64,000 nucleotides of DNA from Elusimicrobia bacterium RIFOXYA2_FULL_47_53 (lineage in GTDB: Bacteria; Elusimicrobiota; Endomicrobiia; Endomicrobiales; XYA2-FULL-47-53), in assembly GCA_001800315.1 (NCBI GenBank), contig MGVE01000008.1:62001-126000 (forward strand), in the 5' to 3' direction. The notes below the pieces were generated by a model, which was not told where the DNA came from, did no database searches, and saw nothing but the letters and a program-made list of their open reading frames with translations. Positions within the stretch are counted from its first letter, which is position 1. The number at the start of each line of letters is the position of its first letter. The translations under genes were made by a program, and so were the position numbers. This document shows, piece by piece, positions 7,794-44,582 of the stretch.

Positions 7794-7796
7794 TTT

Positions 7797-16166: not shown

Positions 16167-16168
16167 TC

Positions 16169-21659: not shown

Positions 21660-23526
21660 TTACTCCAAATCCAATATCCCGGGAAGCGAAGCGCTTTTAA
21701 GAAAAATGTGCTCCGTAATAACCCATCGAGGCCCAGACGACGAAGGGCTGCGCCTTTCTTCCGGCGCGGCTTTAGGCATAAGGCGGCTGGCGGTAATAGA
21801 CCTTAAAACCGGCTCCCAGCCTATCCACAACGAGGACAGTTCTCTTTGGGTAGTCTGCAACGGAGAGATCTATAATTTTCAGGAACTCACCGAAACCTTA
21901 AAAAAGCGGGGGCACCGGTTTTACACGAAAAGCGATGTTGAGGTAATTGTCCACCTTTACGAGGAATACGGCACGGCGCTTCTGCCGCATCTGAGAGGAA
22001 TGTTCGCCTTCGCTCTTTTTGACGAAAAGAAAAACCTGTTCTTCGCCGCCCGGGACCGGCTCGGCAAAAAACCTTTTACCTACGCCCTCTGCGGCGGTTC
22101 GCTGGTCTTCGGCTCGGAAATAAAATCCATTCTTGAGTTCCCGGGAATTAAGAGGGAAGTTAATTATAACGCGATACACCATTACCTGACATACCAGTAT
22201 GTCCCTTCGCCGCTTAGCGCCTTTGAGGGCATACACAAACTTCCGCCGGCGAGCAGCCTGATTTGCGGCTCGTCCGGGAAAGTAACGATTGAACGCTACT
22301 GGCAGCCGGATTTCAGAAATAAACTTAACTATACTGCCGCTGAGTGGGAAGAGGCCCTGCTTAATAAACTGGAAGAATCCACCAGAATCAGGATGGTCAG
22401 CGATGTTCCGCTCGGCGCCTTCCTGTCTGGAGGAGTTGATTCTTCGGCGGTGGTGGCGATGATGGCCAGAAATTCGTCCCAGCCCGTTAAAACCTTTTCT
22501 ATTGGTTTCGCAGAACAGGACTTTTCGGAACTGAAATTTGCCGCTGTTGTGGCAAAGAAGTTCGGAACCGACCACAGGGAGTTCATTGTTAAACCTGAAA
22601 CAGCGGAAATTCTTCCGAAACTTGCCTGGCACTACGGCGAACCGTTCGCGGACTCTTCCGCTCTGCCGTCGTATTTTGTGGCGAGGGAAACAAGAAAGCA
22701 TGTCACTGTCGCGTTAAACGGCGACGGTGGAGACGAAAGCTTCGCCGGATACCTGAGGTACAAAGCCTTCAGGTTTTCCGAAATGACGGCTCCCGTAAAC
22801 AAATTTATCTACGCCATAGGCTCGCCTTTGTCGCGGCATCTGCTTAAGTACTCGTCGGGCCCGGTAAGGAAATATTTAAACTACGCTCTTAGGGTCAGTT
22901 CCGCCCTTTCCCAGCCGCCGGCAAGACGAAATATCCGCTGGCATTCAATTTTTGACAATGAGGCCAAAAACGCCATTTATTCGGAAGCCATGATCAACCG
23001 CTTTGACGGCAACGACGCTTTTAAATACCTTGAAGACATTTTTAACGGCGCGCCGGCTCAAAACAATACCGACCGCCTGCTTTACACCGACCTTTCGGCG
23101 TACCTGCCCGAGTGCCTGCTCGTAAAAATGGATATCGCATCCATGGCCAACTCGCTTGAGGCCAGGAGCCCTTTTCTGGACCACGAGCTTGTTGAACTGG
23201 CCGCGCGGATGCCGCCTGAGCTTAAGCTTAAAGGACTCAACGGAAAATATATACTTAAAAAATCCTTAAAGGGCATTTTGCCCGCCGAGATACTCAGCAG
23301 AAAAAAAATGGGTTTTGGAATACCCGTTAACTCCTGGTTTAGAAACGAGCTGCGCGCCTATTTGAAAGACACCGTACTCTCGGAAAAAGCCCTCGCGAGG
23401 GGATACTTTAAGAAAGACGCGCTTGAGAAACTTATTGCCGAGCATGACTCCGGCAGGGCGGAACACGGCTACAGGCTCTGGGACCTGCTAATGCTGGAAT
23501 TATGGCACAGGGAGTTCATAGACTGA
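21634..23526 (+). CDS. Asparagine synthase-type glutamine amidotransferase (paralogue 4 of 4)
   Basis: The enzyme has 630 residues. Cys2 (MCGITGW), THRGPDDEG and NGEIYNF mark the glutaminase domain. SGGVDSS near residue 265 is the PP-loop. The second synthetase motif reads NGDGGDESFAGY, where most relatives have DELFGGY, so the acceptor pocket may differ. The start is fixed by the need for Cys at position 2 and lies 26 bp inside the preceding GT-C gene. Translation of the two is therefore linked. A membrane glycosyltransferase gene follows after 7 bp. The amide acceptor is not known. Confidence 0.9.
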   Translation: MCGITGWFNYSKSNIPGSEALLRKMCSVITHRGPDDEGLRLSSGAALGIRRLAVIDLKTGSQPIHNEDSSLWVVCNGEIYNFQELTETLKKRGHRFYTKSDVEVIVHLYEEYGTALLPHLRGMFAFALFDEKKNLFFAARDRLGKKPFTYALCGGSLVFGSEIKSILEFPGIKREVNYNAIHHYLTYQYVPSPLSAFEGIHKLPPASSLICGSSGKVTIERYWQPDFRNKLNYTAAEWEEALLNKLEESTRIRMVSDVPLGAFLSGGVDSSAVVAMMARNSSQPVKTFSIGFAEQDFSELKFAAVVAKKFGTDHREFIVKPETAEILPKLAWHYGEPFADSSALPSYFVARETRKHVTVALNGDGGDESFAGYLRYKAFRFSEMTAPVNKFIYAIGSPLSRHLLKYSSGPVRKYLNYALRVSSALSQPPARRNIRWHSIFDNEAKNAIYSEAMINRFDGNDAFKYLEDIFNGAPAQNNTDRLLYTDLSAYLPECLLVKMDIASMANSLEARSPFLDHELVELAARMPPELKLKGLNGKYILKKSLKGILPAEILSRKKMGFGIPVNSWFRNELRAYLKDTVLSEKALARGYFKKDALEKLIAEHDSGRAEHGYRLWDLLMLELWHREFID

Positions 23527-23533
23527 CAATACA

Positions 23534-25267
23534 ATGAATTCAAATATTAGCAGAACAAATACCATGCTTCTAATATCTCTTTTCACGGCCCTTTCTTTAT
23601 TCCTGAGCTTCTGGGGAGTAAACGCCGGGCTTCCGTCAAACGAAACGGCCGCTTTGATTTTTCCCGACCGCTCAGTGCTCAGGGACCTGGGCGGCGTTTT
23701 GAAGTCAACCCGGGAAGAGGTTTACTCGGACTACAGGAAACAAACCGGCATTGAACTGCTTAAGACCTATGAGCCCGACGACGACACCGTTACGGCAGTG
23801 GTATCCGGCAGGCCGGCCTCAATTCAAAAGAAAAAGCTCCACTCCATGCGCTCGGGGCTTTTGCAGAGCAGGTTTCCGGACGAACAGAAAAGCATAATGG
23901 CCCTTTCAAACATAAAACCTGCGGTTTTTGATTTTAATCCGAATATTTTCCAGTATGGGGGGCTGTACTTTTACAGCGTCGGAGCCGCTCTGAAGGCCTC
24001 GGAACTTGCCGGCATAGCGAAGATTACTTCCGATGTTGAATACTATTTTAACAACCAGGACAAAGCCGCAATGCTCTACATAGTGCCCAAATGCTTGGGA
24101 GGCATTCTCGCGGCCGCGGCTGTGCCGCTTATATATATACTCGGAGGGCTAATCTCCGGCAAAAGGGCCGGCATTTTCGCGGCCTTTATGCTGGCCGCGC
24201 TCCCGTCGGTCGCCGCGGAATCTCATTCCTTTAAACCCTATTCCTTCTTTCTTCCCTTTATGACGGCCTCGCTCATCTTTTCCTTTAAGGCCTGCAGCAG
24301 GCCGGGCAGGCTTAACTTTTTCCTTTCGGGAGTTTTCGCCGGCTTGAGCGCGGGAGCTCTTATAATAAGCGGCACGGCGCTAATCTCTTCAATCGCGGCC
24401 TATTTTTTCAGCTTAAAGAAAAATGATAAAAATCCGGCGGGCATTCTTTTCATTTTTGCCGGTTTTGCCGCGGCTTTTATCGCGGTCAACCCTTACTGGC
24501 TGCTCTCCTTTAGCGAAGTAAAAAACGAATTCTCTCACCTGACGCGCCAGGCCCCGTTTATATTTTCTCCGGCGAGAATGTTTCATCATTTCTTTTTTGA
24601 GCTTCACAAAATTACCGGCTGGGGAGTTTACATGCTGTTTGCGGGAGGCCTCCTGCTGGCACTTAAAAAAAGGTCAGCCCAGGACTGGATACTGCTTTCG
24701 GGCCTGCTTCCATTTTACATATATACCGCAAACACGCATTGGGCCTCGCCTCATTACGCTATGCCGCTGATACCGTTTGCGGTCCTGCTTGCCGCCAGGT
24801 TCGCGCTCTGGCTGGGAGATACCGTAAAGTGGAAACCGATTTATCTGTCCCTGCTCGTATTTGTCGGGTTTTACACAATTGGAAACTCCGTTTACTACGA
24901 CCTGCTGTTGACTAAAGACAAACACCTCCTTGAAGCCGGAAGCTGGATAAACAAAAATATTCCGCGCAATGCGGAACTCGGCGCTTCCATATACCCTTTA
25001 TTCGGCTATCAGGGCTATCCGCCTTTCAATGTTTTGAGCTATAATATAAACCAAAGCCGCGACCCGGAATACTTTATTTCTCTTGGAAAGGACGATCCTT
25101 TTATCAGCGGCGGACGGTCTGCCGTGGAAAATTATTCTCCGCTTGTGAAGTTTTCCAGAAAGAAAACTTTTCTGGACAAACTTTATTCAAACCATTTATT
25201 TTATTACTGGGACCTGGATGTGACGGTCTATTCAAAGAACAAATCAGCCGGTTCAAAAAAAGGATAA
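23534..25267 (+). CDS. Membrane glycosyltransferase, GT39/PMT-like (GT-C)
   Basis: This 577-residue protein has one N-terminal helix (residues 12-30), a long outer loop of about 150 residues, then about 9 to 10 further helices and a soluble C-terminal end. The loop before the second helix has FNPNIFQYGGLYFYSVGA, the usual position of GT39 sequences that contact the lipid-linked donor. The long first loop contains charged stretches (GGVLKSTREEVYSDYRKQ) and might bind the acceptor. The DPM-type GT2 gene that follows 4 bp later could supply its polyprenyl-phosphate sugar. Confidence 0.72.
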   Translation: MNSNISRTNTMLLISLFTALSLFLSFWGVNAGLPSNETAALIFPDRSVLRDLGGVLKSTREEVYSDYRKQTGIELLKTYEPDDDTVTAVVSGRPASIQKKKLHSMRSGLLQSRFPDEQKSIMALSNIKPAVFDFNPNIFQYGGLYFYSVGAALKASELAGIAKITSDVEYYFNNQDKAAMLYIVPKCLGGILAAAAVPLIYILGGLISGKRAGIFAAFMLAALPSVAAESHSFKPYSFFLPFMTASLIFSFKACSRPGRLNFFLSGVFAGLSAGALIISGTALISSIAAYFFSLKKNDKNPAGILFIFAGFAAAFIAVNPYWLLSFSEVKNEFSHLTRQAPFIFSPARMFHHFFFELHKITGWGVYMLFAGGLLLALKKRSAQDWILLSGLLPFYIYTANTHWASPHYAMPLIPFAVLLAARFALWLGDTVKWKPIYLSLLVFVGFYTIGNSVYYDLLLTKDKHLLEAGSWINKNIPRNAELGASIYPLFGYQGYPPFNVLSYNINQSRDPEYFISLGKDDPFISGGRSAVENYSPLVKFSRKKTFLDKLYSNHLFYYWDLDVTVYSKNKSAGSKKG

Positions 25268-25271
25268 CTTT

Positions 25272-25949
25272 ATGCTGACAGCTCCAGAAACCGCTGTTGT
25301 AATACCCACGCTTAACGAAGAGGCCTCCATAGCCGGAGTCATAGATTCAGTTTCCGGCTCAGCTTCCAATATTTATGTCATTGACGGCGGTTCAAAGGAT
25401 AAGACCGTAGAGATTGCGTTATCAAAAAACGCGAAAGTGATTAAACAAAAGAGCCGCGGAAAAGGATCCGCTCTGGTACAGGCCCTGAACGAAATAAATG
25501 CAGAGATAATCGTTTTTATTGATGCCGACGGCTCTCATGAAGCCGCCGACATTCCGAAACTTGTTGAGCCGATAGTTGGGGGAAAAGCCGAACTCGTAGT
25601 GGCCTCCCGCTACCTCGGCGGCTCGGATGAACTGCACGGCTCCTGGAACAATTTCGTCAGGATGGTCGGCTCTTCGCTCATTACGCTGGGAATGAACTAC
25701 CGCTGGAATGTGCGCCTTACGGATGTGGAAAACGGATTCAGGGCTGTCAGGCGTTCCGCGGCACTGAAGCTGGAACTGGAGTCAAGTGATTTTACCATTG
25801 AACAGGAAATGGTTATGAAGGCGGTAAAAAACGGTTTAAAAGTTGTGGAAGTGGCCAGCCATGAATACGAAAGAAAGGGCGGCGTTTCAAAACTGCCGAC
25901 CAGCCAGGGCTGGAAGTTTATATACAGATTTTTCAGGGATATAATATGA
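25272..25949 (+). CDS. Family 2 glycosyltransferase, polyprenyl-phosphate sugar synthase-like
   Basis: This 225-residue GT-A enzyme has no membrane helices. AVVIPTLNEEASIAGVIDSV is the nucleotide-binding start, IYVIDGGSKDKTVEI follows, and FIDADGSHEAADI has the DAD metal motif. RYLGGSDELHG and LTDVENGFRAVRRSA are typical of dolichol- or undecaprenyl-phosphate mannose synthases. It would transfer a sugar from a nucleotide donor to polyprenyl phosphate at the inner face. A GT39-like gene directly before it, and others after, are natural users of that product. Its stop overlaps the next start by 4 bp (ATGA). Confidence 0.87.
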   Translation: MLTAPETAVVIPTLNEEASIAGVIDSVSGSASNIYVIDGGSKDKTVEIALSKNAKVIKQKSRGKGSALVQALNEINAEIIVFIDADGSHEAADIPKLVEPIVGGKAELVVASRYLGGSDELHGSWNNFVRMVGSSLITLGMNYRWNVRLTDVENGFRAVRRSAALKLELESSDFTIEQEMVMKAVKNGLKVVEVASHEYERKGGVSKLPTSQGWKFIYRFFRDII

Positions 25950-27370
25950 ATATTTATCTTATCAACCCTCCGGCGGCCGACGGAGTAAAAATTGTGCGCG
26001 AAGGGCGCTGTATGCAGAGAAAGGGCGCGTGGACCTCGGTCTGGTCGCCTATATCTCTGGCTATTTTAGGCGCTATCGCCAGGCAGTCAGGCCATACCGT
26101 TAAGCTTTCCGACTGCATTGTGGAAGAAATTGATTTTAACGAATTAAAGAATCTTGCCTCTCAATTTAAACCCGACCTGGCCATAATTAACGCCGTAACT
26201 CCTTCCATTGAAAGCGACCTCTCCACCTGCAGGTATCTCAAGGAGGCCAACCCCGCGGTTCTCACGGCGGCTATAGGTATTCACCCGACGACGCTTCCAG
26301 AGGATTGCCTGAATGCCGAACCGGCCCTGGACTTTGTCATACGAGGCGAACCCGAGGCCACTGTCAAGGAAATGCTCGCCGCGCTGGCTCAGGGCAACGA
26401 CCTGACTCTAAGCGCCATCACCGGGCTGGCCTTCAGAAAAAACGGCAGGCTTTTCAGGGAGCCGGACCGGAAACCGATTGAAGACTTAAACGAACTGCCT
26501 TTCCCGGCCTGGGACCTGATTGACACAGAACTTTACACGCTTCCGTTTTCCAACAAGAAATTCCTGCTTATCGCCACCAGCCGCGGCTGCCCTTATCCCT
26601 GCCGGTTTTGCGCGGACGCCGCGTATTACGGGAAGAAGCTCAGAGTCAGGAGCCCCAAAAATGTCGTTGACGAGCTTGAATGGGCGAAGAACACTTACAA
26701 AATTGACGAGTTTCTTTTTTGGAGCGAGTCTTTCACGATAAACAAGCAGTTTTCCATTGATGTAGCTCGCGAAATTTTAAGTCGCGGCCTCAAAATTTCC
26801 TGGGTCTGCAACAGCAGGGTTGATAATGTGGATATTGAAATGCTGCGGCTCTTCAAAAAAGCCGGCTGCTGGATGATAGGCTTCGGCATTGAATCCGGAA
26901 ACCAGAATATTTTAAATTCCATGAAAAAGGGAATAACCGTTGAGCAGATTGAAAGCGCGGTAAAGGCTTCTCATGAGGCCGGGCTTGAAGTCACCGGCCA
27001 CTGCGTTATCGGATACCCGGGTGAAACCGTTGAGACTATTAAGGACACCATAAACCTGACAAAGAGGCTGCCCTTTGATTTCGTCCAATTTTACTGTTCA
27101 GTCCCGTTCCCGGGCTCGGAGCTGTACGCGCAGGCCAGGGAGATGGGCTGGATTAACACCAATAACTGGATGTTTTTTGAGCAGAACTTTTGCGTTATGG
27201 ACACGCCTCAGCTGAAAGCTAAAGACGCGATGAAATGGCGGTCAAGAGCCTACAGGCAGTTTTATTTAAGGCCTTCCGTCATAATAAAAACTATTCGCCG
27301 GCTCTCTAACTGGAAAGAATTTATCAATTTTCTGAGAATGGCGAAAGACTTCCTTACCTGGGTGAAATAA
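25946..27370 (+). CDS. Cobalamin-binding-type radical SAM protein (1 of 3)
   Basis: Residues 1 to about 150 look like the N-terminal B12-binding fold: MNIYLINPPAADG, ISLAILGAIARQSGHTVKL, then AIGIHPTTLPED and FVIRGEPEATV. The radical SAM core has C215, C219 and C222 in SRGCPYPCRFCAD, which would hold a [4Fe-4S] cluster, and the later GFGIESGNQNIL strand. This class (BchE/P-methylase-like) includes methylases and rearranging enzymes acting on unactivated carbons. Here it sits between a GT2 gene and a methyltransferase, so modification of a sugar or lipid carrier is likely, but the substrate is unknown. Confidence 0.85.
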   Translation: MNIYLINPPAADGVKIVREGRCMQRKGAWTSVWSPISLAILGAIARQSGHTVKLSDCIVEEIDFNELKNLASQFKPDLAIINAVTPSIESDLSTCRYLKEANPAVLTAAIGIHPTTLPEDCLNAEPALDFVIRGEPEATVKEMLAALAQGNDLTLSAITGLAFRKNGRLFREPDRKPIEDLNELPFPAWDLIDTELYTLPFSNKKFLLIATSRGCPYPCRFCADAAYYGKKLRVRSPKNVVDELEWAKNTYKIDEFLFWSESFTINKQFSIDVAREILSRGLKISWVCNSRVDNVDIEMLRLFKKAGCWMIGFGIESGNQNILNSMKKGITVEQIESAVKASHEAGLEVTGHCVIGYPGETVETIKDTINLTKRLPFDFVQFYCSVPFPGSELYAQAREMGWINTNNWMFFEQNFCVMDTPQLKAKDAMKWRSRAYRQFYLRPSVIIKTIRRLSNWKEFINFLRMAKDFLTWVK

Positions 27371-28093
27371 ATGAATAAACTTGAAAACGAGATAAGCCAC
27401 GGCAAAAATATTGTTTCCAAAGCGGAGCTTATATGGGGCTGGGATACCCCGGCCGGAAAGATAAGGGCCGCAAGAAGGGCCGAATACTTTATCAAGCTGG
27501 GCGGAATTGAAAAAGGCAAAAAAGTTCTTGAGATAGGCTGCGGAACCGGCTTATTCACCAGAAAAATCGCTGAAACCGCGGCCGACCTGACGGCCATAGA
27601 CATTTCTCCGGAGCTTATAGAAAAGGCGGCGGCAAATTTCAGCTTTAAGAACGCCTTATTCATGACGGCAGACGCCGAGCATCTTAATTTTGCAGGCGGT
27701 TCTTTTGACTGCGTTGTGGGAAGTTCGGTCCTGCACCACTTAAACCTGGGCGCGGCTTTAGGTGAAATATTCAGGGTTTTAAAACCGGGAGGGAAGCTTG
27801 TTTTCGCCGAACCGAATATGCTCAACCCGCAGATACTCCTGCAGAAAAACATCAAGTTTCTCGGAAAAATGCTCGGAGACACTCCTGACGAAACCGCTTT
27901 TTTCAGAGGGGCCCTTGCGGGAGATTTGAAGAAAGCCGGCTTTACAAACATAAATATCGCGCCCTACGACTTCCTTCACCCGTGGATACCACCGGCATTG
28001 ATAGCTCCTGTCAGGGTTTTAGGCTCACTGCTTGAAAAACTCCCGTTGATAAAAGAGATCGCCGGCTCTTTAATAATTGAGGCCCGGAAATGA
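27371..28093 (+). CDS. Class I SAM-dependent methyltransferase
   Basis: This 240-residue protein has KVLEIGCGTGLFTRKIAE (motif I, SAM binding), LTAIDISPELIEKA (motif II), LNFAGGSFDCVVGSSVLHHL (motif IV region) and VLKPGGKLVFAEP. It is soluble and of normal length. The first 45 residues (NKLENEISHGKNIVSKAELI) form a short helical cap. It starts directly after the radical SAM stop and overlaps the next gene by 4 bp. It could O- or N-methylate the glycan or act together with the radical SAM enzyme; its acceptor is unknown. Confidence 0.85.
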   Translation: MNKLENEISHGKNIVSKAELIWGWDTPAGKIRAARRAEYFIKLGGIEKGKKVLEIGCGTGLFTRKIAETAADLTAIDISPELIEKAAANFSFKNALFMTADAEHLNFAGGSFDCVVGSSVLHHLNLGAALGEIFRVLKPGGKLVFAEPNMLNPQILLQKNIKFLGKMLGDTPDETAFFRGALAGDLKKAGFTNINIAPYDFLHPWIPPALIAPVRVLGSLLEKLPLIKEIAGSLIIEARK

Positions 28094-29655
28094 CGGGAAT
28101 ATTCCAAAAACACGGAGCCCTGCTTATCCTCCTGGCTTTTCTGTCTGTTTTCTCTTTAAGATTTGTAAATCTGTCCGGGAAGGGTTTTTTCTCGTATGAT
28201 GAGGCCTATTACAGCCTTGAGGCGAGGACTCCCGCGCAGGCTCTTTCATGGCTGAGGGAAAACCTATCTCAGCTGAGAAACGGAGAAAAGGGGATTTCAG
28301 ATTTAAAAGAATATTTGAAACAACACGGCGCCGTATTTCCGCTGGGAACTGCCAAACCTTCTTTTTTATTCGCCCTGAGCGTATTTTACTTTATTTTCGG
28401 GAATCACGATCTCACTGCTTTTCTGTTTTCCGTTTTCTGGAGCGCGGCCCTGCTTGGCGCCGTTTTTCTGCTTTCAAAACAGCTCTGGGGAAATGAGGCC
28501 GCCGTTCTTTCGGCCTTTGCCGCGCTTATTTCCGTTGAGCATTTTTATTTTTCCAGGTCCGGATATCCGCAGACAATGGCGGCATTTTTCCTGACAGCTT
28601 CCCTGTATTTAATCGCACGGCGGAGATTTTTATCAGGCGGCGCGGCGTTTTCGCTGGCGCTGACCTCCCACTACTGCGTACTCTTCAGCCTTATTCCGGC
28701 GCTGTTATGGTTTGCGCTCTACAAACGGGAAAAACTTTTGGCTTTCCTGGCGGGTTTTATTATTCCGCTTGTAATAATTGAAGCGCTTTTCAGGATAGAA
28801 TACCTGCTGCTTAAGCCCTGGCTTTCGGATGTAAGTTTTTTCACTTATGCCCAGCACTTCGCCCGGCAGATACTCTGGGTATCGCCGAACAAAACATCAT
28901 TTTTCAGCCATGATTTTCTGCTCGTTCCTAAAATGCTTTTCAGCTCCGAGGGAATCCTGCTCGGCGCCGCGGCTCTGTCCGCCGTGACGGTTTTCGCCGC
29001 GAAATTCTCAAAGCTTTCCGTTGAGGAAAAACTGGTTGTTTTCACGGGAGCGGGCGGGCTGTTATTATGGGTAATTAACCCCGGCTTTACGGCATCAAGA
29101 GCCGTTTTTCCTTCGTGGATGCTTATTCTGGCCCTCTGCGGATATGCATTTTCTCTAATCAGGATTAAGGCGCTTTTGTTAACGCTTCTGCTGGCTTTGG
29201 GTGTTTTTTCCGCGTACAGGCACCTATCACTCTCAGCGGTTTCATCCAATTACAAAGAGGCCGCCGCCTGGGTCAGCGAAAACGGCGGGGAGGGAGTAAT
29301 AGAGATATTTAACTGGCCCATTTACCAGTTCTATTTAAATAAAACCGTATCGGCCAATTCCGACAGGATCCAGAGCCTTCCCGACCTGAAATCTTTTCAG
29401 GAGGCCGGGACAAGGTTTCTTTCCATAGATTACACCAGCGCCTTCTGGGACCGTGAAACCTGGGGCTTTGCCGATGACATTATGGCGTCCCGTCAGCCTG
29501 TTAAAACCGTTAAGACCGGGCTTTTCAAATATCCGTGGATAATCTACCAGATAGTGCCCACCGAAACGGAGCAGAAGCGCTTAAACGAAGCACCCGAATA
29601 TAAAAAGGACATTAACATTTACGATCTGGACGCGTATTTCTCCGCTAAATCTTAA
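28090..29655 (+). CDS. GT39-like membrane glycosyltransferase (GT-C)
   Basis: This 521-residue protein has about 11 hydrophobic segments in residues 1 to 400 and a soluble periplasmic-type C-terminal domain. The first loop has the family feature FFSYDEAYYSLEA, with the acidic pair after helix 1, and the second block KPSFLFALSVFYFIFG corresponds to the P-x-x-x-x-L region. It should use a polyprenyl-phosphate sugar on the outer membrane face. The start overlaps the methyltransferase stop (ATGA) and the second radical SAM gene follows 2 bp after its end. Confidence 0.8.
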   Translation: MTGIFQKHGALLILLAFLSVFSLRFVNLSGKGFFSYDEAYYSLEARTPAQALSWLRENLSQLRNGEKGISDLKEYLKQHGAVFPLGTAKPSFLFALSVFYFIFGNHDLTAFLFSVFWSAALLGAVFLLSKQLWGNEAAVLSAFAALISVEHFYFSRSGYPQTMAAFFLTASLYLIARRRFLSGGAAFSLALTSHYCVLFSLIPALLWFALYKREKLLAFLAGFIIPLVIIEALFRIEYLLLKPWLSDVSFFTYAQHFARQILWVSPNKTSFFSHDFLLVPKMLFSSEGILLGAAALSAVTVFAAKFSKLSVEEKLVVFTGAGGLLLWVINPGFTASRAVFPSWMLILALCGYAFSLIRIKALLLTLLLALGVFSAYRHLSLSAVSSNYKEAAAWVSENGGEGVIEIFNWPIYQFYLNKTVSANSDRIQSLPDLKSFQEAGTRFLSIDYTSAFWDRETWGFADDIMASRQPVKTVKTGLFKYPWIIYQIVPTETEQKRLNEAPEYKKDINIYDLDAYFSAKS

Positions 29656-29657
29656 CT

Positions 29658-31085
29658 ATGGCTAAGCTGCTATTTCTGCAGGAACTTGAATACGAATTTT
29701 TAGGGCCTATGTACCTTTCGGCCCTGCTGAAAGCCAACTCGCACGAAACGCGCATGGCTATCGGACGGGATGCCGATGATTTTTCCGGAATTATGGAAGA
29801 ATACAAACCCGACCTGGTTGCTTTTTCGGTTATGACGGGCTCTCACCGGTGGGCTCAGCGCGCCGCAGCTAAACTCAAGAAAAAGTATAACGCGCTGACC
29901 GTATTCGGAGGGCCGCATCCCACCTTCTTTCCGGAATTTATTAATGAAGACGGCGTGGACATAATCTGCAGGGGAGAGGGCGAGGAAGCTCTTTTAGACC
30001 TGATGAACGCCCTGAGAGACGGCCGCGATTTTACCCGCGTGCCGAATCTTCACATAAAAAAAGACGGAACAGTAATAAAAAATGAGGTCCGCGCGCTTTG
30101 CTCCGACATTGACCTCCTGCCGCTTGCCGACAGAAACCTCTACGACTGCCTGGACAGCGTAACGGAAAGAAGCGTGCGCAATGTCATAACTTCCCGCGGC
30201 TGTCCTTTCCACTGCACCTTTTGTTTTGAGGACAGCATGCGCGAGCTTTATAAAGACAAGGGCAAGTATGTGAGGATACGCCGCGTTGACAATGTCATGG
30301 CCGAGCTGGCAGAATTAAAGAAAACTCACGGAGCCAGGGCTGTGTATTTCTGCGACGATGTTTTCGGCATAGATAAAAAGTGGCTGTACGAATTTCTTCC
30401 CATTTATAAAAAGGAAATCGGCCTTGAGTTCTTCTGCCTGGTCAGGGCCGATGTCGTGGCTTCCGACGAAACTTACGCCGTCAAGCTTAAAGAGGCCGGC
30501 TGCTCCGGAGTTTTCTTCGGCATTGAAACCGGCTCAGAGGCTCTCAGAAACGGCCTGCTGAATAAAAATCTCAGGGACAAAGACATTTACAAGGCCGCCG
30601 CTATTCTGCGCAAAGCAGGCCTTAAATTCAGGACTTACAATATTCTCGGCCTGCCCGGCGAAACCCTGGATGACGCCTTTGCCACCGTTGAAATGAACAT
30701 TAAACTTAAGGCGGACTACCCCTGGTGCTCAATATTTTCTCCGTACCCAAGGACCAAACTGACCGAATACGCCTGCGCCAGGGGCTACCTGGAAAAAGAT
30801 TTCCAGCCGGATTCGGTCTCGCGCTCCTTTTTCATTGAGAGCAGGCTAAACATGCCGGACGCGAAGAGGATTGAGAACCTTCAGAAGTTTTTTCAGACCG
30901 CGGTGCTGTGGCCGTGGCTCCTGCCCGCGATAAAACTTCTTATAAAACTGCCGCCGAATATTTTTTTCAGGGGCTGGTTCGCTCTGGTCTATTTTTATGT
31001 GTATTTGAAAAGCGAGCGGAGGGGATTTTTAAAAACGCTTATCTTCGCTCTCCGAAACTATAAACATGTCATAATAAAGGGTTGA
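29658..31085 (+). CDS. Cobalamin-binding-type radical SAM protein (2 of 3)
   Basis: The 475-residue protein starts with a B12-binding-like domain (AKLLFLQELEYEFLGPMYLS, LVAFSVMTGS, VFGGPHPTFFPE, ICRGEGEEAL). The radical SAM core carries C182, C186 and C189 in SRGCPFHCTFCFE, followed by YFCDDVFGID and GVFFGIETGSEAL. A C-terminal domain of about 130 residues follows and ends in basic helices. It resembles the first copy only in general layout, so the two probably act on different substrates. It lies between a GT-C gene and a heptosyltransferase-like gene in a tightly packed operon. Confidence 0.85.
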   Translation: MAKLLFLQELEYEFLGPMYLSALLKANSHETRMAIGRDADDFSGIMEEYKPDLVAFSVMTGSHRWAQRAAAKLKKKYNALTVFGGPHPTFFPEFINEDGVDIICRGEGEEALLDLMNALRDGRDFTRVPNLHIKKDGTVIKNEVRALCSDIDLLPLADRNLYDCLDSVTERSVRNVITSRGCPFHCTFCFEDSMRELYKDKGKYVRIRRVDNVMAELAELKKTHGARAVYFCDDVFGIDKKWLYEFLPIYKKEIGLEFFCLVRADVVASDETYAVKLKEAGCSGVFFGIETGSEALRNGLLNKNLRDKDIYKAAAILRKAGLKFRTYNILGLPGETLDDAFATVEMNIKLKADYPWCSIFSPYPRTKLTEYACARGYLEKDFQPDSVSRSFFIESRLNMPDAKRIENLQKFFQTAVLWPWLLPAIKLLIKLPPNIFFRGWFALVYFYVYLKSERRGFLKTLIFALRNYKHVIIKG

Positions 31086-31087
31086 TC

Positions 31088-32266
31088 ATGAAAATCAAAC
31101 AAATGAAACTGCTGGACAGGTACCTGGGTTTTATAGCGTGCAAATTATTCTCGCTTTTTACGCCCCGTCCATCCAAAACCAGGCCCAAAATAGACAAACA
31201 CAAAACAAAGAACATTCTTTTGATGAAATTTTTCGGCCTCGGAAGCATTCTGCTTTTGTCTCCGGCCGTAAAGGCGATAAAAAACGGCTTCCCGCACTCA
31301 AGGCTGGTTTTCTTCACGCTTTCAAGGAACAGGGAGCTCTGCCGTTCTCTGGGAATTTTTGACGAGGTTATAACCCTGGAGGTGGACAAAGGGTGGCCGG
31401 CATTTTGTTCCTCCCTGCTTTCAAGTATTTTTTATCTCTGGAAACGCCGTTTTGACATGACGGTGGACTTTGAGTTCTTCACGAGATTCTCCGCCGTAAT
31501 GACTTTTCTTTCCTTCGCGCCGGTGAGGGTGGGATACCACGCCTGGGAAACCTGGCGGGGAAATACGCACAACATCCAGGTGCCTTTTAACCGCTACTGG
31601 CACATAATGGACAATTTTTACAACCTCGCGACCTACATAGGCCTTCCGAAAAACGGAGAGCTGAAAATTATTAGGCCGGAGGTTTCCCGCGAAGACAGCG
31701 AATTCGTCGCCTCTCTGCTTAAGGATAACGGGGCCTCGGGAGACTTTATTTCTGTCCATTTTAACGCCAGCGACCTTTCCATAGAACGCCGCTGGCCCTA
31801 CGAGAACTTCATCAAGCTCATTAACAGGCTGGTTGAAGACTACAACCTTAAGATTATTTTCATCGGCTCAAAATCCGAGTCCGGCTCCGTGGGTGAAATA
31901 GTGCGCGCGATCGGCGGCAAAAGCTCGGCGGTCCTTAACTTCGCCGGAAAACTTTCCATAACGCAGCTGGCGCGCCTCTTTGAGCTTTCAAAGCTGGTTA
32001 TTTCCAACGACTCCGGCCCCCTGCACCTGGCCGTCGCCATGGAAACGCCCACCGTTTCGTTTTTCGGTCCGGAAACTCCGGTAATTTACGGCCCGCTGGG
32101 AAAAAGCCATACTGTTTTCTTTAAAAATATTGACTGCAGCCCGTGCATTAATGTCCATGACCGCAAATCGGTTCACTGCTACTGGGAAAAACCCAGGTGC
32201 ATGGAAGCCATTTCCGTTGACGAAGTTTACGCCGCTATCGCGGACAAATTAGGCGCCAGAGAATGA
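31088..32266 (+). CDS. Family 9 glycosyltransferase (ADP-heptose:LPS heptosyltransferase-like)
   Basis: GT9 enzymes transfer heptose or related sugars in the cytoplasm, classically to the lipopolysaccharide core. Features are NILLMKFFGLGSILLLSPAV (family start), the mid-protein YENFIKLINRLVEDYN, and the donor motif SNDSGPLHLAVAMETPTVSF followed by FGPETPVIYGP. I place the start at ATG 31088, which has AAAGGG 6 bp upstream; the TTG at 31082 has no room for a ribosome site. A Cys-rich stretch follows (DCSPCINVHD, HCYWEKPRCM), as in several WaaF-like proteins. Donor and acceptor are unproven, but it hints at an LPS-like glycan. Confidence 0.87.
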   Translation: MKIKQMKLLDRYLGFIACKLFSLFTPRPSKTRPKIDKHKTKNILLMKFFGLGSILLLSPAVKAIKNGFPHSRLVFFTLSRNRELCRSLGIFDEVITLEVDKGWPAFCSSLLSSIFYLWKRRFDMTVDFEFFTRFSAVMTFLSFAPVRVGYHAWETWRGNTHNIQVPFNRYWHIMDNFYNLATYIGLPKNGELKIIRPEVSREDSEFVASLLKDNGASGDFISVHFNASDLSIERRWPYENFIKLINRLVEDYNLKIIFIGSKSESGSVGEIVRAIGGKSSAVLNFAGKLSITQLARLFELSKLVISNDSGPLHLAVAMETPTVSFFGPETPVIYGPLGKSHTVFFKNIDCSPCINVHDRKSVHCYWEKPRCMEAISVDEVYAAIADKLGARE

Positions 32267-33645
32267 AAAAGGTATTACTGCTCAACCCTCCAGGCAGAAA
32301 GCTTTACATAAGGGAATATTTCTGCAGCAAAGTTTCCCAGGCCGACTATATTCCTCACCCGGTTGACCTTGTAATGCTCAGCGGGGTTTTGTCAGGCAAA
32401 TTCGCTCTGGAACTTATTGACGCCATTACCGGAAAACTCAGCGAGGCCGGCGCGCTTGAAGCCGCGGCCGCCGTTAAACCGGAGGCGGTTATTTGCCTTG
32501 TTGGGGCGGCCAGCCTGTCGGAGGATCTGGCTTTCCTCAAAGCGCTCAGGCCCCGCCTGCCAAATGCTAAAATAATAGCTATCGGCGATGTCTTTAGAGA
32601 AGACGCGCGCAAACGCCTTGGTGATTACCCGTTCATTGACGCCGTACTGCTGGACTTTACTTCCGAAGACATTGTCCTCTACCTTGAGGGCAATACTTCA
32701 TCCCTGCCCGATATTGTCACCGCCGATTCTGTTGAAACCGCTTACCCGGTTAAAAAGGGCAGTTACTCCGTTGGAATCCCCGACCATAAACTGTTCTTAA
32801 AATACAATTACAGGCATCCCTTTGTCAGAAGCCGCCGCTTCGCGACAGTGCTGACAGACTACGGCTGTCCCTTCAAATGCACCTTTTGCGTAATGGGAAC
32901 TCTGGGATTTGCCGTCAGGGAAGTTGACAATATCATGCGGGAGCTTGAAGCGATAGTTTCTTTAGGCACCAGAGAAGTTCTTTTCCAGACTCAGACTTTC
33001 GGCGCCAATAAAAAACAGGCCGTAGAACTCTGCGAGAGGATCATTAAGTCAAAACTCGGCCTGGGGTGGGTCTGTTTTTCAAGAGTGGATGTGACGACTC
33101 CCGAACTGCTTGACAAGATGAAAAGAGCCGGCTGCCATACGATAATTTTCGGCATAGAATCCGGAGCTGACAAGATTTTGAGCGCGTATCAGAAAGGTTA
33201 TACGGCGGCGCAGGCTGAAGCCGTAATTGAATATTGCGACAGGATAGGCATTGAAACCGCCGGCACCTTCATACTGGGACTGCCCGAAGAAACCCGGGAA
33301 ACGCTCGCGCGGACTCTGTCGCTGATAAAAAGGATTCGGCTTGATTACGCTTCTTTTAATGTGGCCGTTCCGCGGGCCGGAACGGGGCTTCGGAAAGAAG
33401 CCATCGGGCTCGGATTAGCCGGTGAAAACACGGAAATTATGGACCAGTCCGGAAGCGATATTTCCATGCCAACAAAAACTTTAAGCCGAGCGGAAATACT
33501 TAAGTTCCGCAGAAAAGCCGTAGCCGCCTTTTACTTTTCTCCGAAAAATCTTGTCCGCCGGATATTCAAGGCAAGGTCTCTGCCGATGCTTTTAAGGAAT
33601 TTTTCGCAGGGCCTGTCACTAATAAGGAATACTTGGTTCTCATGA
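32263..33645 (+). CDS. Cobalamin-binding-type radical SAM protein (3 of 3)
   Basis: The 460-residue protein begins with a B12-binding-like domain (KVLLLNPPGRKLYIREYF, ICLVGAASLSEDLAFLKAL, IIAIGDVFREDA). The radical SAM domain has C202, C206 and C209 in DYGCPFKCTFCVM, then FQTQTFGANK and IIFGIESGADKIL. ETAGTFILGLPEETRETL is the usual strand near the end of the barrel. The start overlaps the GT9 stop by 4 bp (ATGA). The N-terminal domain lacks a DxHxxG motif, as do many class B radical SAM methylases, so B12 binding would be in the base-off/His-off form. Substrate unknown. Confidence 0.85.
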   Translation: MKKVLLLNPPGRKLYIREYFCSKVSQADYIPHPVDLVMLSGVLSGKFALELIDAITGKLSEAGALEAAAAVKPEAVICLVGAASLSEDLAFLKALRPRLPNAKIIAIGDVFREDARKRLGDYPFIDAVLLDFTSEDIVLYLEGNTSSLPDIVTADSVETAYPVKKGSYSVGIPDHKLFLKYNYRHPFVRSRRFATVLTDYGCPFKCTFCVMGTLGFAVREVDNIMRELEAIVSLGTREVLFQTQTFGANKKQAVELCERIIKSKLGLGWVCFSRVDVTTPELLDKMKRAGCHTIIFGIESGADKILSAYQKGYTAAQAEAVIEYCDRIGIETAGTFILGLPEETRETLARTLSLIKRIRLDYASFNVAVPRAGTGLRKEAIGLGLAGENTEIMDQSGSDISMPTKTLSRAEILKFRRKAVAAFYFSPKNLVRRIFKARSLPMLLRNFSQGLSLIRNTWFS

Positions 33646-34847
33646 ACAGAAAAACAATTACAGGCATTTTCCTGCTTTCGCTCGTTTTAAGGCTCGGGCT
33701 TTTGTATTTCTTTGACGGCACAAAGCAGGTGGAACAGATGGACGCCAAAGATTACGAGGCGATAGCTCAGAACCTTATCGGCGGGCGAGGTTTTATAAAT
33801 ATCAGCGACAGCCCGACCATGAGCCGTCCGCCCGTCTACCCGGTATTTCTCGCCGGAGTCTATTATGTGTTCGGCAGCAGGGAATCCGTTGTCAAAGTAT
33901 TCCAGTGCGTCTTAGACTCGGTGACGGTTCTGCTGGCCGCCTATATCGCGCTCTTATGCTTAAATCCCGCAGCCGCGCTGCTTACGGGATTTATTGCGGC
34001 GCTTTATCCTCCGCTTATTATTTACAGCAACATAAAGCTCGGGGAAACCGTGTTTACTTTTTTTCTGGTCTTATCCTGTCTTCTGCTGATAAAATCCTTT
34101 AAAAGCGGCGAAGCCAAACTCTTCTCCTGGGCCGGAATCGCTCACGGCCTGGCCACGCTGACCCGCTCAACGACTTTATTTTTTCCATTTTTTCTTTTGC
34201 CGCTTTTCTTTCTCAATGCCTATAAAAAATTCGCGCTCAAAGGCCTTATTATATTTTTTGCCGCGGGTTTTGCGGTGATATCCGTCTGGACAATCCGCAA
34301 TTACGCGGTTTTCGGAGAGCTGCTGCCGGTAAACACGGGCGGCGGTTACCTATTGTGGTTCGCGATTCAGGAAGACGCGTGGCAGGGGGACAAGCTTGTG
34401 GAACTCAGCCCTTACCGCGAATTTGAAGACATTAAAGGTATGTCATGGGTAAAGTGGGACAAACTGTTGACCAAGAGGGTCGTAAAATACGCCCTGGCCC
34501 ACCCTTTGGACTATTCCAGGAAAACCGCCGTTAATTTCGCCAAGCTGTGGTACCTGCCCGTGGGCAAAGTGATCCTCGCCGGAAAGTTCAGGCTCGCGGC
34601 CGATATTTATCAGGCCGTGTTTATAATATTTCTCCTGACCGCGGCGGCAGGCTTGTATTTCGCCCTGGCGCACAAAAAAGATGTTTTAATACCGCTTCTG
34701 TATCTTATCTATCTTTCGGTAATGCACAGCGTGGTTTTGCCGGTTCCCCGCTACAGGCTTCCCTTTGAACCTCTGGTATTGATGTTCGCCGCCTACGGAC
34801 TTCTGAGTTTTTACCGGAATTTCAAAAATAAACCGGCGGTGAAATAA
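33642..34847 (+). CDS. GT39/ArnT-like membrane glycosyltransferase (GT-C)
   Basis: The start is ATG 33642, overlapping the preceding stop by 4 bp; a TTG three codons upstream lacks support. The 401-residue protein has about 10 helices. The first loop reads MDAKDYEAIAQNLIGGRGF, then SRPPVYPVFLAGVYYVFG, nearly the pattern seen in the protein at 20409, so the two are paralogues. LTRSTTLFFPFFLLPLFF and YRLPFEPLVLMFAAYGL match the middle and end of ArnT-like enzymes. The likely function is transfer of a polyprenyl-phosphate-linked sugar on the outer membrane face. Confidence 0.85.
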   Translation: MNRKTITGIFLLSLVLRLGLLYFFDGTKQVEQMDAKDYEAIAQNLIGGRGFINISDSPTMSRPPVYPVFLAGVYYVFGSRESVVKVFQCVLDSVTVLLAAYIALLCLNPAAALLTGFIAALYPPLIIYSNIKLGETVFTFFLVLSCLLLIKSFKSGEAKLFSWAGIAHGLATLTRSTTLFFPFFLLPLFFLNAYKKFALKGLIIFFAAGFAVISVWTIRNYAVFGELLPVNTGGGYLLWFAIQEDAWQGDKLVELSPYREFEDIKGMSWVKWDKLLTKRVVKYALAHPLDYSRKTAVNFAKLWYLPVGKVILAGKFRLAADIYQAVFIIFLLTAAAGLYFALAHKKDVLIPLLYLIYLSVMHSVVLPVPRYRLPFEPLVLMFAAYGLLSFYRNFKNKPAVK

Positions 34848-34848
34848 T

Positions 34849-35706
34849 ATGATATGCCCCGTCTGCTCTTCAAATTCAATGCCGGCGCTTGAGATAAATA
34901 ACAGGCAGGTTTACCTCTGCGGCTCCTGCTCAACGAAATTTATCTGGCCCCAGCCTTCCGAAGATGAAATACGCGCCATATATTCAAAGAATTATTACGA
35001 TTCCTGGGGCATAACCGGAGAGCAGGGCGACGGCTCCGTGAAAGCAATGAAGACGGCCACATTTGAAAGGAGAATGGACCTGATAGAGAAACACATTAAA
35101 CCCGGGAAAATCCTGGACATAGGATGCGCCTGCGGATACTTTCTTGAGACGGCGGCCAAAAGGGGGTTTACTCCTTACGGTGTTGAGCTTTCGGATTATT
35201 CCTGTAAAATAGCGAAGGAATCTTTGGGCGAGGAAAATATATTCAACGGCACTATTGAAAACGCTCCCTTTGACGATAAAAGTTTTGACGCGGTGGCGAT
35301 GTCGGACCTCCTGGAACATGTCACGAACCCCAACAAAACCCTTTCAAAAGTCCGCGGCCTGCTTAAAGACGGCGGCGTAATAATGATAATGACGCCCGAC
35401 CACGGTTCACTGACCGCGGCGCTGATGGGCCGGCGCTGGACCCATTACAAAGAAGAGCACCTGTTTTATTTCAACCGCAGGGCGCTTAAATACATTCTTG
35501 ATAAAAACGGGTTTAAGGTTCTGGAAGTGAGGAGCGCGGAAAAAGCCATGAATCTTAAATATTTTAAAACGCAGTTTAATATTTACACCAACGCCTTAAT
35601 AACGCCTCTGGTAAATTTGGCCGTCCGGCTGCTGCCGGAGAGATTTCTGTCTAAGAATTTTTACCTGCCGTTAGGCGAGATGGCGGTTATTGCCGTAAAA
35701 AAATGA
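34849..35706 (+). CDS. SAM-dependent methyltransferase with N-terminal zinc ribbon
   Basis: This 285-residue protein opens with two CxxC pairs (CPVC, then CGSC within YLCGSCSTKFIWPQP), a small zinc ribbon common in sugar C-methyltransferases and related enzymes. A class I methyltransferase core follows: KILDIGCACGYFLETAAKRG, then PYGVELSDYSCKIA, DLLEHVTNPNKTL and IMIMTPDHGSLTA. The C-terminal 80 residues have EEHLFYFNRRALKYIL, a block seen in many such glycan-locus proteins. It starts 1 bp after the previous stop. It is the last plus-strand gene before the convergent minus-strand gene, 8 bp away. Confidence 0.83.
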   Translation: MICPVCSSNSMPALEINNRQVYLCGSCSTKFIWPQPSEDEIRAIYSKNYYDSWGITGEQGDGSVKAMKTATFERRMDLIEKHIKPGKILDIGCACGYFLETAAKRGFTPYGVELSDYSCKIAKESLGEENIFNGTIENAPFDDKSFDAVAMSDLLEHVTNPNKTLSKVRGLLKDGGVIMIMTPDHGSLTAALMGRRWTHYKEEHLFYFNRRALKYILDKNGFKVLEVRSAEKAMNLKYFKTQFNIYTNALITPLVNLAVRLLPERFLSKNFYLPLGEMAVIAVKK

Positions 35707-35714
35707 GCTGAACC

Positions 35715-36356
35715 CTATTTTACCCAGCGGCCGGCGCAGTACAGCGAAAAGTCAATAGGAAGCAGCGGCGGAAAATGGTTCAATTCTTCTCTATTAAGCG
35801 CGCTGTCAAGCGCCGAAATAATTAATTCGTGCGAAGAAACATGGTTCTTATCAAAATCAAAACCGACGGCCCCGAACAGCGCGTCAGTAAGTTTATTCTT
35901 TACGGGGAAACCCGCCAGCAGAACCCCTCCGGGCGACAATATCCTTTTTATCTCGGCTGAAGCCTTCGCCAGGTCTTTTATGTGTTCTAAAATGCTTATG
36001 CACAGAACGCAGTCAAACGAACCGTCCTCAAAAGGCAGGTTAAGTATATCGCCTTTAAAAAGTTCGGCATTAACATTTTCCTTGCTGAGCATATCGCGCA
36101 CAACAGACATATTGTCGTGCAGGTCAACTCCGAAAACGCTGTCTGCTCTTTTTGAAAGTTCCGGCAGATAAATCCCGCTCCCGTAACCGATTTCAAGTAT
36201 CTTTTTAAACTTCCTGCCCTCAATAAGCTCAAGCGACATCTTAAGCCTTTTTAAGTAAAACGAGCCTGTCACCGGCATATAGTAAAACTTAAGCGGGTCT
36301 CCTGCTCCCGTGGCTTTAATATTTTTTTTGGGGGGTATTCTGATGCTGTTTTTCAT
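35715..36356 (-). CDS. Class I SAM-dependent methyltransferase, opposite strand
   Basis: This is the only convincing minus-strand gene in the window. It encodes 213 residues with KILEIGYGSGIYLPELSKRA (motif I), SVFGVDLHDNM (motif II), LPFEDGSFDCVLCISILEHI and ILSPGGVLLAGFPV. The start has AAAGGA about 9 bp upstream on its own strand. The upstream side is the palindromic repeat at 36423-36580; the 3' end faces the preceding methyltransferase with 8 bp between stops. It may modify the same glycan, although its separate transcription suggests a separate or regulated role. Confidence 0.83.
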   Translation of the reverse strand: MKNSIRIPPKKNIKATGAGDPLKFYYMPVTGSFYLKRLKMSLELIEGRKFKKILEIGYGSGIYLPELSKRADSVFGVDLHDNMSVVRDMLSKENVNAELFKGDILNLPFEDGSFDCVLCISILEHIKDLAKASAEIKRILSPGGVLLAGFPVKNKLTDALFGAVGFDFDKNHVSSHELIISALDSALNREELNHFPPLLPIDFSLYCAGRWVK

Positions 36357-36422
36357 TCAAGTTATCCTTTGCGCTGAGAATATAATTGAAACGCGGCGTT
36401 GAAAGACGGCCCGGCCAGGTGA

Positions 36423-36580: not shown

Positions 36581-36595
36581 GGTTGTAAAAGTGAT

Positions 36596-36624: not shown

Positions 36625-36642
36625 AAGTTTTGAAATTTCAAT

Positions 36643-36679: not shown

Positions 36680-36704
36680 TCAGCCTTGAACAGAACAGGA
36701 ATTG

Positions 36705-42204: not shown

Positions 42205-42213
42205 GTTGAATTT

Positions 42214-44579: not shown

Positions 44580-44582
44580 TTA

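Follow-up and report, generated by a model that had tools for sequence, protein, structure and literature searches.

What do three radical SAM genes, interleaved with glycosyltransferase genes, contribute to the glycan made by an Elusimicrobiota genome, and do they act as one set? To our knowledge, only a small number of radical SAM enzymes work on sugars, most of them from antibiotic pathways. The window, a stretch of 64,000 nucleotides from Elusimicrobia bacterium RIFOXYA2_FULL_47_53, holds a same-strand glycan cluster of about 52 kb (Table 1), in keeping with the glycan setting proposed by the first-pass annotation. Besides the listed genes, the cluster encodes WecB, an NDP-sugar dehydrogenase, WecA-like and Wzx-like proteins, and a carbamoyltransferase.

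Table 1. Position, strand and supporting detail of the cluster and its genes (window coordinates)
Feature	Position	Strand	Detail
Whole glycan cluster	212..52217	+	ORF order and gaps; same strand except 35715-36356
Asparagine-synthase-like amidotransferase (AsnB)	21634..23526	+	
GT-C (weak PMT_2) membrane glycosyltransferase, upstream of GT2	23534..25267	+	PMT_2 25.7 bits, slightly under cut-off
GT2, polyprenyl-phosphate-sugar synthase type	25272..25949	+	Glycos_transf_2 90 bits
RSAM1, HpnJ/BchE-like cobalamin radical SAM protein	25946..27370	+	474 aa
Class I SAM methyltransferase, between RSAM1 and GT-C	27371..28093	+	Methyltransf_11 90 bits
GT-C (weak PMT_2) membrane glycosyltransferase	28090..29655	+	PMT_2 25.9 bits, cut-off 26.1
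RSAM2, cobalamin-type radical SAM protein, module core	29658..31085	+	475 aa
GT9 heptosyltransferase-family glycosyltransferase, between RSAM2 and RSAM3	31082..32266	+	PF01075 106 bits
RSAM3, radical SAM protein with degenerate B12-like domain (GD/DF), AprD4-like	32263..33645	+	460 aa
GT-C (PMT_2-like) membrane glycosyltransferase	33633..34847	+	PMT_2 50 bits
SAM methyltransferase, frequent module member	34849..35706	+	Methyltransf_23 94 bits

Kinship of the three radical SAM proteins

The interleaving of the three genes with GT2, GT-C and GT9 genes was recovered as the first-pass annotation described it, but the spacing, given there as gaps or overlaps of 2-4 bp, ranges from -13 to +2 bp, with 4-bp overlaps at four junctions including that of GT2 and RSAM1. 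Each protein carries a single C-x3-C-x2-C motif at the annotated place (first cysteine C215 in RSAM1, C182 in RSAM2, C202 in RSAM3), and all pass the Pfam Radical_SAM model (97, 74 and 79 bits, respectively). The earlier view that they have only their layout in common was mistaken, as BLASTP aligns them pairwise at 27-31% identity (E values 5e-36, 1e-47 and 2e-23). Judged by their sequences, the three are homologous, old paralogues; recent duplication, also denied earlier, was rejected because of this low identity and because they occupy separate clades in the tree.

None of the three reaches any NCBIfam cut-off, and no curated family model covers RSAM2 or RSAM3. Neither hopanoid nor tRNA modification, the unrelated functions against which the first-pass annotation had set its proposal, was borne out. 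A role in tRNA modification (MiaB/RimO methylthiotransferases) was rejected on TIGR00089 scores of at most 54 bits against a cut-off of 251, and a hopanoid role on the lack of any hopene cyclase match (SQHop_cyclase_C, PF13243) in the genome, which is listed as 100% complete. CobS and a methionine-synthase-like ORF in the genome indicate that the organism uses B12. Its genome carries other clusters of B12-type radical SAM candidates, and genomes of relatives contain up to about 50 radical SAM candidates (G003).

A recurrent RSAM2-GT9-RSAM3 module

The grouping of RSAM2 and RSAM3 with GT9 is conserved as a gene module, which recurs in some twenty lineages of bacteria and in a single archaeal bin. 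In neighbour counts made on stop-to-stop frames, 58 of 87 RSAM3 loci, under about 20 phylum-level labels, have a GT9 gene no more than 3 kb away (51 of them within 600 bp), against 0 of 17 control loci with other B12-type radical SAM genes. Over the same distance, RSAM2 accompanies RSAM3 in 16 of the 87 loci, and whole-genome searches found a strong-similarity RSAM2 in 16 of 50 RSAM3-bearing genomes. Because most RSAM3 genomes thus lack RSAM2 at strong similarity, RSAM3 and GT9 can work without it. Among cultured flavobacteria, Aquimarina algiphila and Aurantibacter aestuarii KCTC 32269 have the module, and Crocinitomix catalasitica has GT9-RSAM3 without RSAM2. Distance matrices correlate between GT9 and RSAM3 (r 0.83, n 56; best of 5000 permutations 0.16) and between RSAM3 and RSAM2 (r 0.74, n 17), although these Mantel values still include shared species history.

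Elusimicrobia have the block RSAM2-GT9-RSAM3-GTC-methyltransferase in common (L088-L091), with orthologues of the GT-C that follows RSAM3 in the window. In L110, RSAM2-methyltransferase-GT9 adjoins RSAM3, and in L097 the order is RSAM3-RSAM1like-RSAM2. The module-type methyltransferase, which occurs in all five of the loci L088-L091 and L110 and in ten RSAM3 loci altogether, bears N-terminal cysteine pairs (CxxC...CxxC) that look zinc-ribbon-like by eye. Among class-level relatives, an AsnB orthologue is contiguous with GT9-RSAM3 in L072 and L075 (AsnB-GT9-RSAM3) and shares the locus in L069 and L070.

RSAM1 is a separate, looser, HpnJ-like component outside the module core. Its relatives, one of them at 56% in a Desantisbacteria genome, seldom have a GT9 gene close by (3 of 21 loci, counted within 3 kb), for which reason a fixed trio was rejected. 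A GT2 of the polyprenyl-phosphate-sugar synthase type lies within 3 kb in 9 of the 21, and in L085 a relative of the GT-C upstream of GT2 adjoins a GT2-RSAM1-like pair. The window GT2 itself matches AglJ, PpgS and dolichyl-P-hexose models, all below cut-off. The conservation of the interleaving in relatives, proposed earlier as a check, holds for RSAM2-GT9-RSAM3, even beyond the phylum, but one set of all three radical SAM genes is not supported.

Cofactor signatures and a probable heptose link

The first-pass annotation assigned a cobalamin-type B12 fold to all three proteins, an assignment that by signature stands for RSAM1 and RSAM2, whose Pfam B12-binding (PF02310) matches of 58 and 65 bits exceed the threshold, but not for RSAM3, which has no such match. 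RSAM1 aligns over its full length with the HpnJ model TIGR03471 (299 bits, under the cut-off of 577.6) and has its corrinoid-loop motifs in variant form. RSAM2 has intact GGPHPT and RGEGE motifs and hydrophobic C-terminal helices, and GG-x-H is retained in 22 of 22 aligned members of its clade (n=23, support 0.999). Its AF2 model (pLDDT 90) finds MgmA (9ccb) as the best Foldseek match in the PDB (E 3.6e-22), only one order of magnitude ahead of AprD4; it scores 101 bits on the MgmA model TIGR04014 (cut-off 360) and 110 bits on that of HpnJ.

In the RSAM3 clade (n=76, support 1.0), GD and DF have taken the place of the B12-domain motifs GG-x-H and GEGE. The first replacement is seen in 74 of 76 members, a histidine in the loop in none and RGEGE nowhere, while two orthologues keep a sub-threshold B12-binding remnant (E 0.004-0.008). 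By signature, RSAM3 is thus not of the cobalamin type, the corrinoid signature having been lost family-wide. AprD4 is its nearest neighbour both by Foldseek with the AF2 model (6fd2, E 3e-22, TM 0.73; next match 1e-16) and by sequence search of the PDB (4.8e-23), at 112 bits on the AprD4 model NF033070 (cut-off 500) and 158 bits on TIGR03471. In our alignments, the B12-binding enzymes TokK and MgmA have GGP and GEGE, and AprD4 has neither. No AprD3-like reductase was recognised among the largest annotated neighbour clusters of RSAM3.

The window GT9 exceeds the PF01075 threshold of 22 bits widely and has NDSGPLH and RRWP motifs; its best equivalog score (TIGR02195, 89 bits, cut-off 134.6) and all others fall below the NCBIfam heptosyltransferase cut-offs (WaaC/WaaF/WaaQ). 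Three flavobacterial loci (including L156 and L158) are the only ones in which ADP-heptose genes adjoin the module, GT9, RSAM3 and RSAM2 coming after a complete ADP-heptose operon. One such locus runs GmhB-HldD-HldE-GmhA-GT9-RSAM3-GTC-RSAM2, with GmhB, HldD and the HldE domains over their NCBIfam cut-offs and GmhA below. The flavobacterial GT9s are distant from that of the window (60-90 bits). Elsewhere, it is GT9 family membership that suggests heptose. The window's own genome encodes a heptose kinase over cut-off, and adjacent GmhA and adenylyltransferase matches, both below. It also has six other GT9 matches, three of them clustered at C11:9-12 kb. Our literature searches found no paper in which GT9 or ADP-heptose is connected with radical SAM enzymes, and nothing on Elusimicrobia radical SAM/B12-binding proteins or on radical SAM, cobalamin-binding, O-antigen and GT9 together.

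Proposed function and comparison with known systems

The best explanation of the locus, which with all its steps taken jointly we hold to have an even chance of being right, is a glycan-tailoring RSAM2/GT9/RSAM3 module with a separable RSAM1 unit. Here we infer the substrates, step order, reactions and products, the best reading being that a lipid-linked glycan, probably one that contains heptose, is remodelled by radical chemistry in the cytoplasm. GT9, using a nucleotide-activated donor, would attach heptose or a sugar like it to the lipid-linked glycan at the cytoplasmic face. The membrane-associated, cobalamin-dependent RSAM2 most likely C-methylates a carbon of the glycolipid, and RSAM3 most likely works like AprD4, removing a hydrogen from a sugar carbinol in a cobalamin-free reaction that leads to dehydration or deoxygenation or to a redox rearrangement. 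Decoration and extension of the product would fall to the neighbouring methyltransferase and GT-C proteins, and RSAM1 probably uses cobalamin to remodel a hexose that the overlapping GT2 has loaded onto polyprenyl phosphate. The sequence would fit a C-methylated, a rearranged or a deoxygenated sugar equally.

The module suggests that a surface sugar undergoes a radical modification not described so far. More tentatively, and with less than even confidence, we propose that RSAM3 founds a widespread cobalamin-free, AprD4-like class coupled to GT9 and that, together with RSAM2 as the cobalamin enzyme, it produces a radical-modified heptose not seen before (deoxy, dehydrated, rearranged or branched) in surface glycans of about twenty phyla, cultured flavobacteria included. 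The module offers a bounded target, i.e., two families for which no curated model exists, a glycosyltransferase as their constant partner and a candidate substrate class, and the flavobacterial isolates make knock-out and glycan analysis possible in principle.

A rival reading, developed from the leading suggestion of the first-pass annotation, is that all three are cobalamin-dependent C-methyltransferases and jointly give the glycan several C-methyl branches. It would suit the B12-binding domains of RSAM1 and RSAM2, the structural closeness of RSAM2 to a C-methylase and the precedent of sugar C-methylation by GenK and GenD1 (PMC5461906). However, the motif loss throughout the RSAM3 clade and the nearness of RSAM1 to HpnJ and BchE, which show no methylation activity (PMC13142503), make this unlikely. 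We consider it more doubtful still that the target is the polyprenyl or lipid anchor, or some other lipid, instead of the sugar. The closest curated families (HpnJ, rSAM_ladder_B12) do act on lipids or lipid-like substrates, and the hydrophobic helices of RSAM2 would fit, but HpnJ itself targets the sugar moiety of its glycolipid, lipid-linked glucosamine (PMC12583986), the module keeps a GT9 glycosyltransferase as constant partner and not a lipid enzyme, and the genome has no hopene cyclase match. It is very improbable that three enzymes merely landed together in a phylum rich in B12-type radical SAMs in glycan loci, despite the abundance noted above. The grouping is more than chance because the genome has only 14 B12-binding-domain matches in 2.41 Mb and RSAM2/GT9/RSAM3 recurs across phyla, its two radical SAM proteins forming distinct supported clades repeatedly beside a GT9 that the control loci lack; chance is thus disfavoured for the module, while RSAM1 may still have arrived in this way. 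Least probable is a small-molecule secondary metabolite made by GT9 and RSAM3, since, although the relatives AprD4, OxsB and TsrM are natural-product enzymes and ADP-heptose is used in some antibiotics, the same cluster contains WecA-like, Wzx-like, GT-C and flippase-like genes, and the surroundings in other loci are rich in glycosyltransferases.

The preferred reading, a glycan-tailoring module, also differs from the systems that it resembles. The window GT9 shares its PF01075 domain and both motifs with the ADP-heptose heptosyltransferases WaaC, WaaF and WaaQ, but scores below their cut-offs and is coupled to radical SAM genes. RSAM1 has the glycan/lipid setting and intact B12 domain of HpnJ, the hopanoid cyclitol-ether radical SAM enzyme, but remains below the equivalog cut-off in a host lacking a cyclase match. 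RSAM2 shares GGP and GEGE motifs and its best fold match with MgmA, a cobalamin radical SAM glutamine C-methylase; however, the identity in that match is 23%, and MgmA acts on a protein. GenK and GenD1, class B radical SAM methylases, are similar by description of function only and belong to aminoglycoside pathways. AprD4, a radical SAM 1,2-diol dehydratase that acts on a sugar, is the nearest solved structure to RSAM3 and likewise has a B12-like domain without GG-x-H and GEGE; the two differ in that they are only 20% identical and RSAM3 is tied to GT9 rather than to aminoglycoside genes. RSAM3 would also illustrate how a B12 domain is kept as a scaffold after its corrinoid signature is lost.

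A module of RSAM2, GT9 and RSAM3

The real unit of the locus is a module of RSAM2, GT9 and RSAM3. The first-pass annotation had treated three cobalamin-type radical SAM genes interleaved with glycosyltransferases as the unit; that interpretation is partly supported, and it is improved by placing the unit at RSAM2-GT9-RSAM3. A scan with an RSAM3 alignment, one genome per species, yielded 80 loci labelled Elusimicrobia, Desantisbacteria, Omnitrophota, Nitrospinota, Nitrospirae, Planctomycetota, Geobacter and other deltaproteobacteria, Poribacteria, Fibrobacterota, SAR324, Sumerlaeota, Riflebacteria, Bacteroidetes, Alphaproteobacteria, Lentisphaerae and others, with a single Woesearchaeota bin also among the matches. 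Because the loci come mostly from metagenome-assembled genomes, single taxon assignments may be contaminated; isolates carrying RSAM3 include Aquimarina algiphila, Aurantibacter aestuarii and Crocinitomix catalasitica. The gene also occurs on MGVF01000091.1 (Elusimicrobia bacterium RIFOXYA2_FULL_50_26).

In counts from stop-to-stop frames, 58 of 87 loci (about five counted twice) have GT9 no more than 3 kb from RSAM3, 51 have it within 600 bp, and 16 have an RSAM2-type gene within 3 kb. Of the 25 RSAM3 loci lacking GT9, several are contigs shorter than 8 kb. GT9 was found in none of 17 control loci with other B12-type radical SAM genes and neither RSAM2 nor RSAM3. Sequence distances of RSAM3 correlate with those of GT9 (r 0.83, n=56; the highest of 5000 permutations reached 0.16) and of RSAM2 (r 0.74, n=17; highest permutation 0.44), both uncorrected for shared species history, which contributes to them.

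Four loci (L088-L091), three of them labelled Elusimicrobia, hold the window's set of RSAM2, GT9, RSAM3, GT-C (membrane glycosyltransferase) and methyltransferase, arranged as in the window wherever order can be read, and L133 has RSAM2-GT9-RSAM3. In a poribacterial locus (L110), RSAM2, a methyltransferase gene and GT9 share a strand, and RSAM3 neighbours them on the opposite one. RSAM1-like genes appear in an omnitrophotal locus (L097: GT9, RSAM3, RSAM1-like, RSAM2) and a deltaproteobacterial one (L117: RSAM3, methyltransferase, RSAM1-like, RSAM2). Among nearer relatives, an AsnB-like amidotransferase gene, GT9, RSAM3 and GT-C are adjacent in L072 and separated by one inserted methyltransferase in L075; AsnB, GT9 and RSAM3 share one locus in L069 and L070; L076 has RSAM2-GT9 without RSAM3, and in L074 RSAM2 directly adjoins RSAM3.

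A second radical SAM-rich glycan locus of the source genome (L031:6004-16395 and L032:1802-4655; G000:C11:46-65 kb) has five B12-type genes, none of which belongs to the RSAM2 or RSAM3 kind. A relative of 3.4 Mb (G003) shows a large expansion, with about 50 candidate radical SAM matches.

Kinship and cobalamin signature

The three radical SAM genes and their cluster cysteines are confirmed (see table). They had been said to share only layout, but pairwise identities of 27% over 379 aa (E 5e-36), 28% over 483 aa (1e-47) and 31% over 213 aa (2e-23) mark them, by sequence, as homologous old paralogues. A tree of 175 related sequences, a sample biased because most were taken from RSAM3 loci, places RSAM2 (23 members, support 0.999) and RSAM3 (76 members, 1.0) in separate clades, with RSAM1 outside both.

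Judged by domain match and motifs, the cobalamin-type assignment holds for RSAM1 and RSAM2 (Pfam B12-binding, 58 and 65 bits) and fails for RSAM3, which has no Pfam B12-binding match and has lost the motifs. The RSAM2 clade loop is GG-x-H-x-T, with G-G and H kept in 22/22 aligned members; the equivalent RSAM3 loop is G-D (G 76/76, D 74/76, H 0/76), and RGEGE is replaced by a D-F-T-S-like motif (F 75/76). In two RSAM3 orthologues a remnant of the domain still scores, below threshold (E 0.004-0.008). In PDB alignments, GGP and GEGE are present in TokK (solved with hydroxocobalamin) and MgmA, and neither in AprD4. By signature, then, RSAM3 is not cobalamin-type.

The RSAM3 model (7-sequence alignment, mean pLDDT 75, pTM 0.79, cluster-binding loop poorly predicted) best matches AprD4 (E 3e-22, TM 0.73), followed by TsrM (1e-16). 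That of RSAM2 (15 sequences, pLDDT 90, pTM 0.88) best matches the cobalamin C-methylase MgmA (3.6e-22), with AprD4 a close second (6e-21). With these different best matches, the predicted folds favour different classes, a preference that is clear for RSAM3 and weak for RSAM2. Novelty lies in the families, in how they are tied to GT9 and in the missing B12 signature; fold and chemistry class are already known. Since CobS and a methionine-synthase-like ORF are present, the source genome probably uses B12.

The glycan cluster and a probable heptose link

In the 2.41-Mb source genome (window, G000:C8:62001-126000), whose relatives belong to the Elusimicrobiota, a same-strand run at 212-52217, broken only by one minus-strand methyltransferase, encloses all three genes. 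It contains four AsnB-like amidotransferases (called by eye, one checked against NCBIfam), WecB, an NDP-sugar dehydrogenase, a WecA-like phosphoglycosyltransferase, Wzx-like and LPG_synthase_TM proteins, GT4, GT2, GT9 and GT-C genes, methyltransferases and a carbamoyltransferase, and looks like a cluster for surface polysaccharide or a lipid-linked glycan. Four such amidotransferases are unusually many for one glycan cluster. Just past it, GC falls from about 0.49 to 0.36-0.39 (52001-56000), possibly an inserted island.

Features of the glycan cluster and the adjoining stretch
Feature	Coordinates	Strand	Remark
AsnB-like glutamine amidotransferase	212-2098		
AsnB-like glutamine amidotransferase	9034-10923		
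642-aa protein	13390-15318		no match in Pfam or NCBIfam; between methyltransferase and nitroreductase-family protein
AsnB-like glutamine amidotransferase	16169-18058		
AsnB-like glutamine amidotransferase	21634-23526		orthologues at GT9-RSAM3 loci
RSAM1	25946-27370	+	first cysteine C215
RSAM2	29658-31085	+	first cysteine C182
GT9	31082-32266	+	
RSAM3	32263-33645	+	first cysteine C202
Methyltransferase	35715-36356	-	interrupts same-strand run
NodU/CmcH-type carbamoyltransferase	38668-40401		relatives recur close to radical SAM genes in L069, L190, L192
ORF	53135-53788		in low-GC stretch; no Pfam match
ORF	54202-55464		in low-GC stretch; TPR

GT9 is the heptosyltransferase family; the window's member scores 106 bits to PF01075, under the WaaF/WaaC/WaaQ equivalog cut-offs. 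A Flavobacteriaceae locus (L165) has, consecutively, GmhB, HldD, HldE, GmhA, GT9, RSAM3, a GT-C-like gene and RSAM2, with GmhB, HldD and both HldE domains over the curated cut-off and GmhA short of it; L156 and L158 have the same heptose genes at the locus. In these flavobacteria RSAM2 still shows 57-58% identity to the window's, RSAM3 only 36-38%. Beside its heptose operon, L165 has three further B12-type radical SAM genes and a radical SAM/SPASM-like protein (2-4285 and 16278-18880). The source genome has a heptose kinase over cut-off, and adjacent GmhA-like and adenylyltransferase-like genes, both under their cut-offs.

A proposed pathway and the place of RSAM1

We infer a likely course of events, of which the sequence fixes neither step order nor product. 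GT2 would load a hexose onto polyprenyl phosphate, to be remodelled by RSAM1, and a lipid-linked acceptor would receive a heptose-type sugar from GT9. The glycolipid would be C-methylated by RSAM2, whose hydrophobic C-terminal helices suggest membrane contact, and RSAM3, without cobalamin, may take hydrogen from a sugar carbon, leading to dehydration, deoxygenation or rearrangement. Completion of the unit, before or after flipping, would fall to methyltransferases, amidotransferases and GT-C enzymes.

Within 3 kb, nine of 21 close relatives of RSAM1 have a GT2 of the polyprenyl-phosphate-sugar-synthase type and three have GT9; RSAM1's nearest tree relatives (L107, L109, L153; support 0.62) are directly upstream of RSAM3. 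A relative (56%) in a Desantisbacteria genome is followed on its contig by a YfhO-like membrane protein gene. The source genome, listed as 100% complete, has no SQHop_cyclase_C match. Cobalamin radical SAM enzymes that do not methylate include HpnJ, BchE and OxsB (PMC13142503); HpnJ turns lipid-linked glucosamine into a cyclitol ether (PMC12583986). HpnJ is the best curated match of RSAM1, with BchE next; the HpnJ match spans the full length and stays under that family's cut-off (299 vs 577.6 bits).
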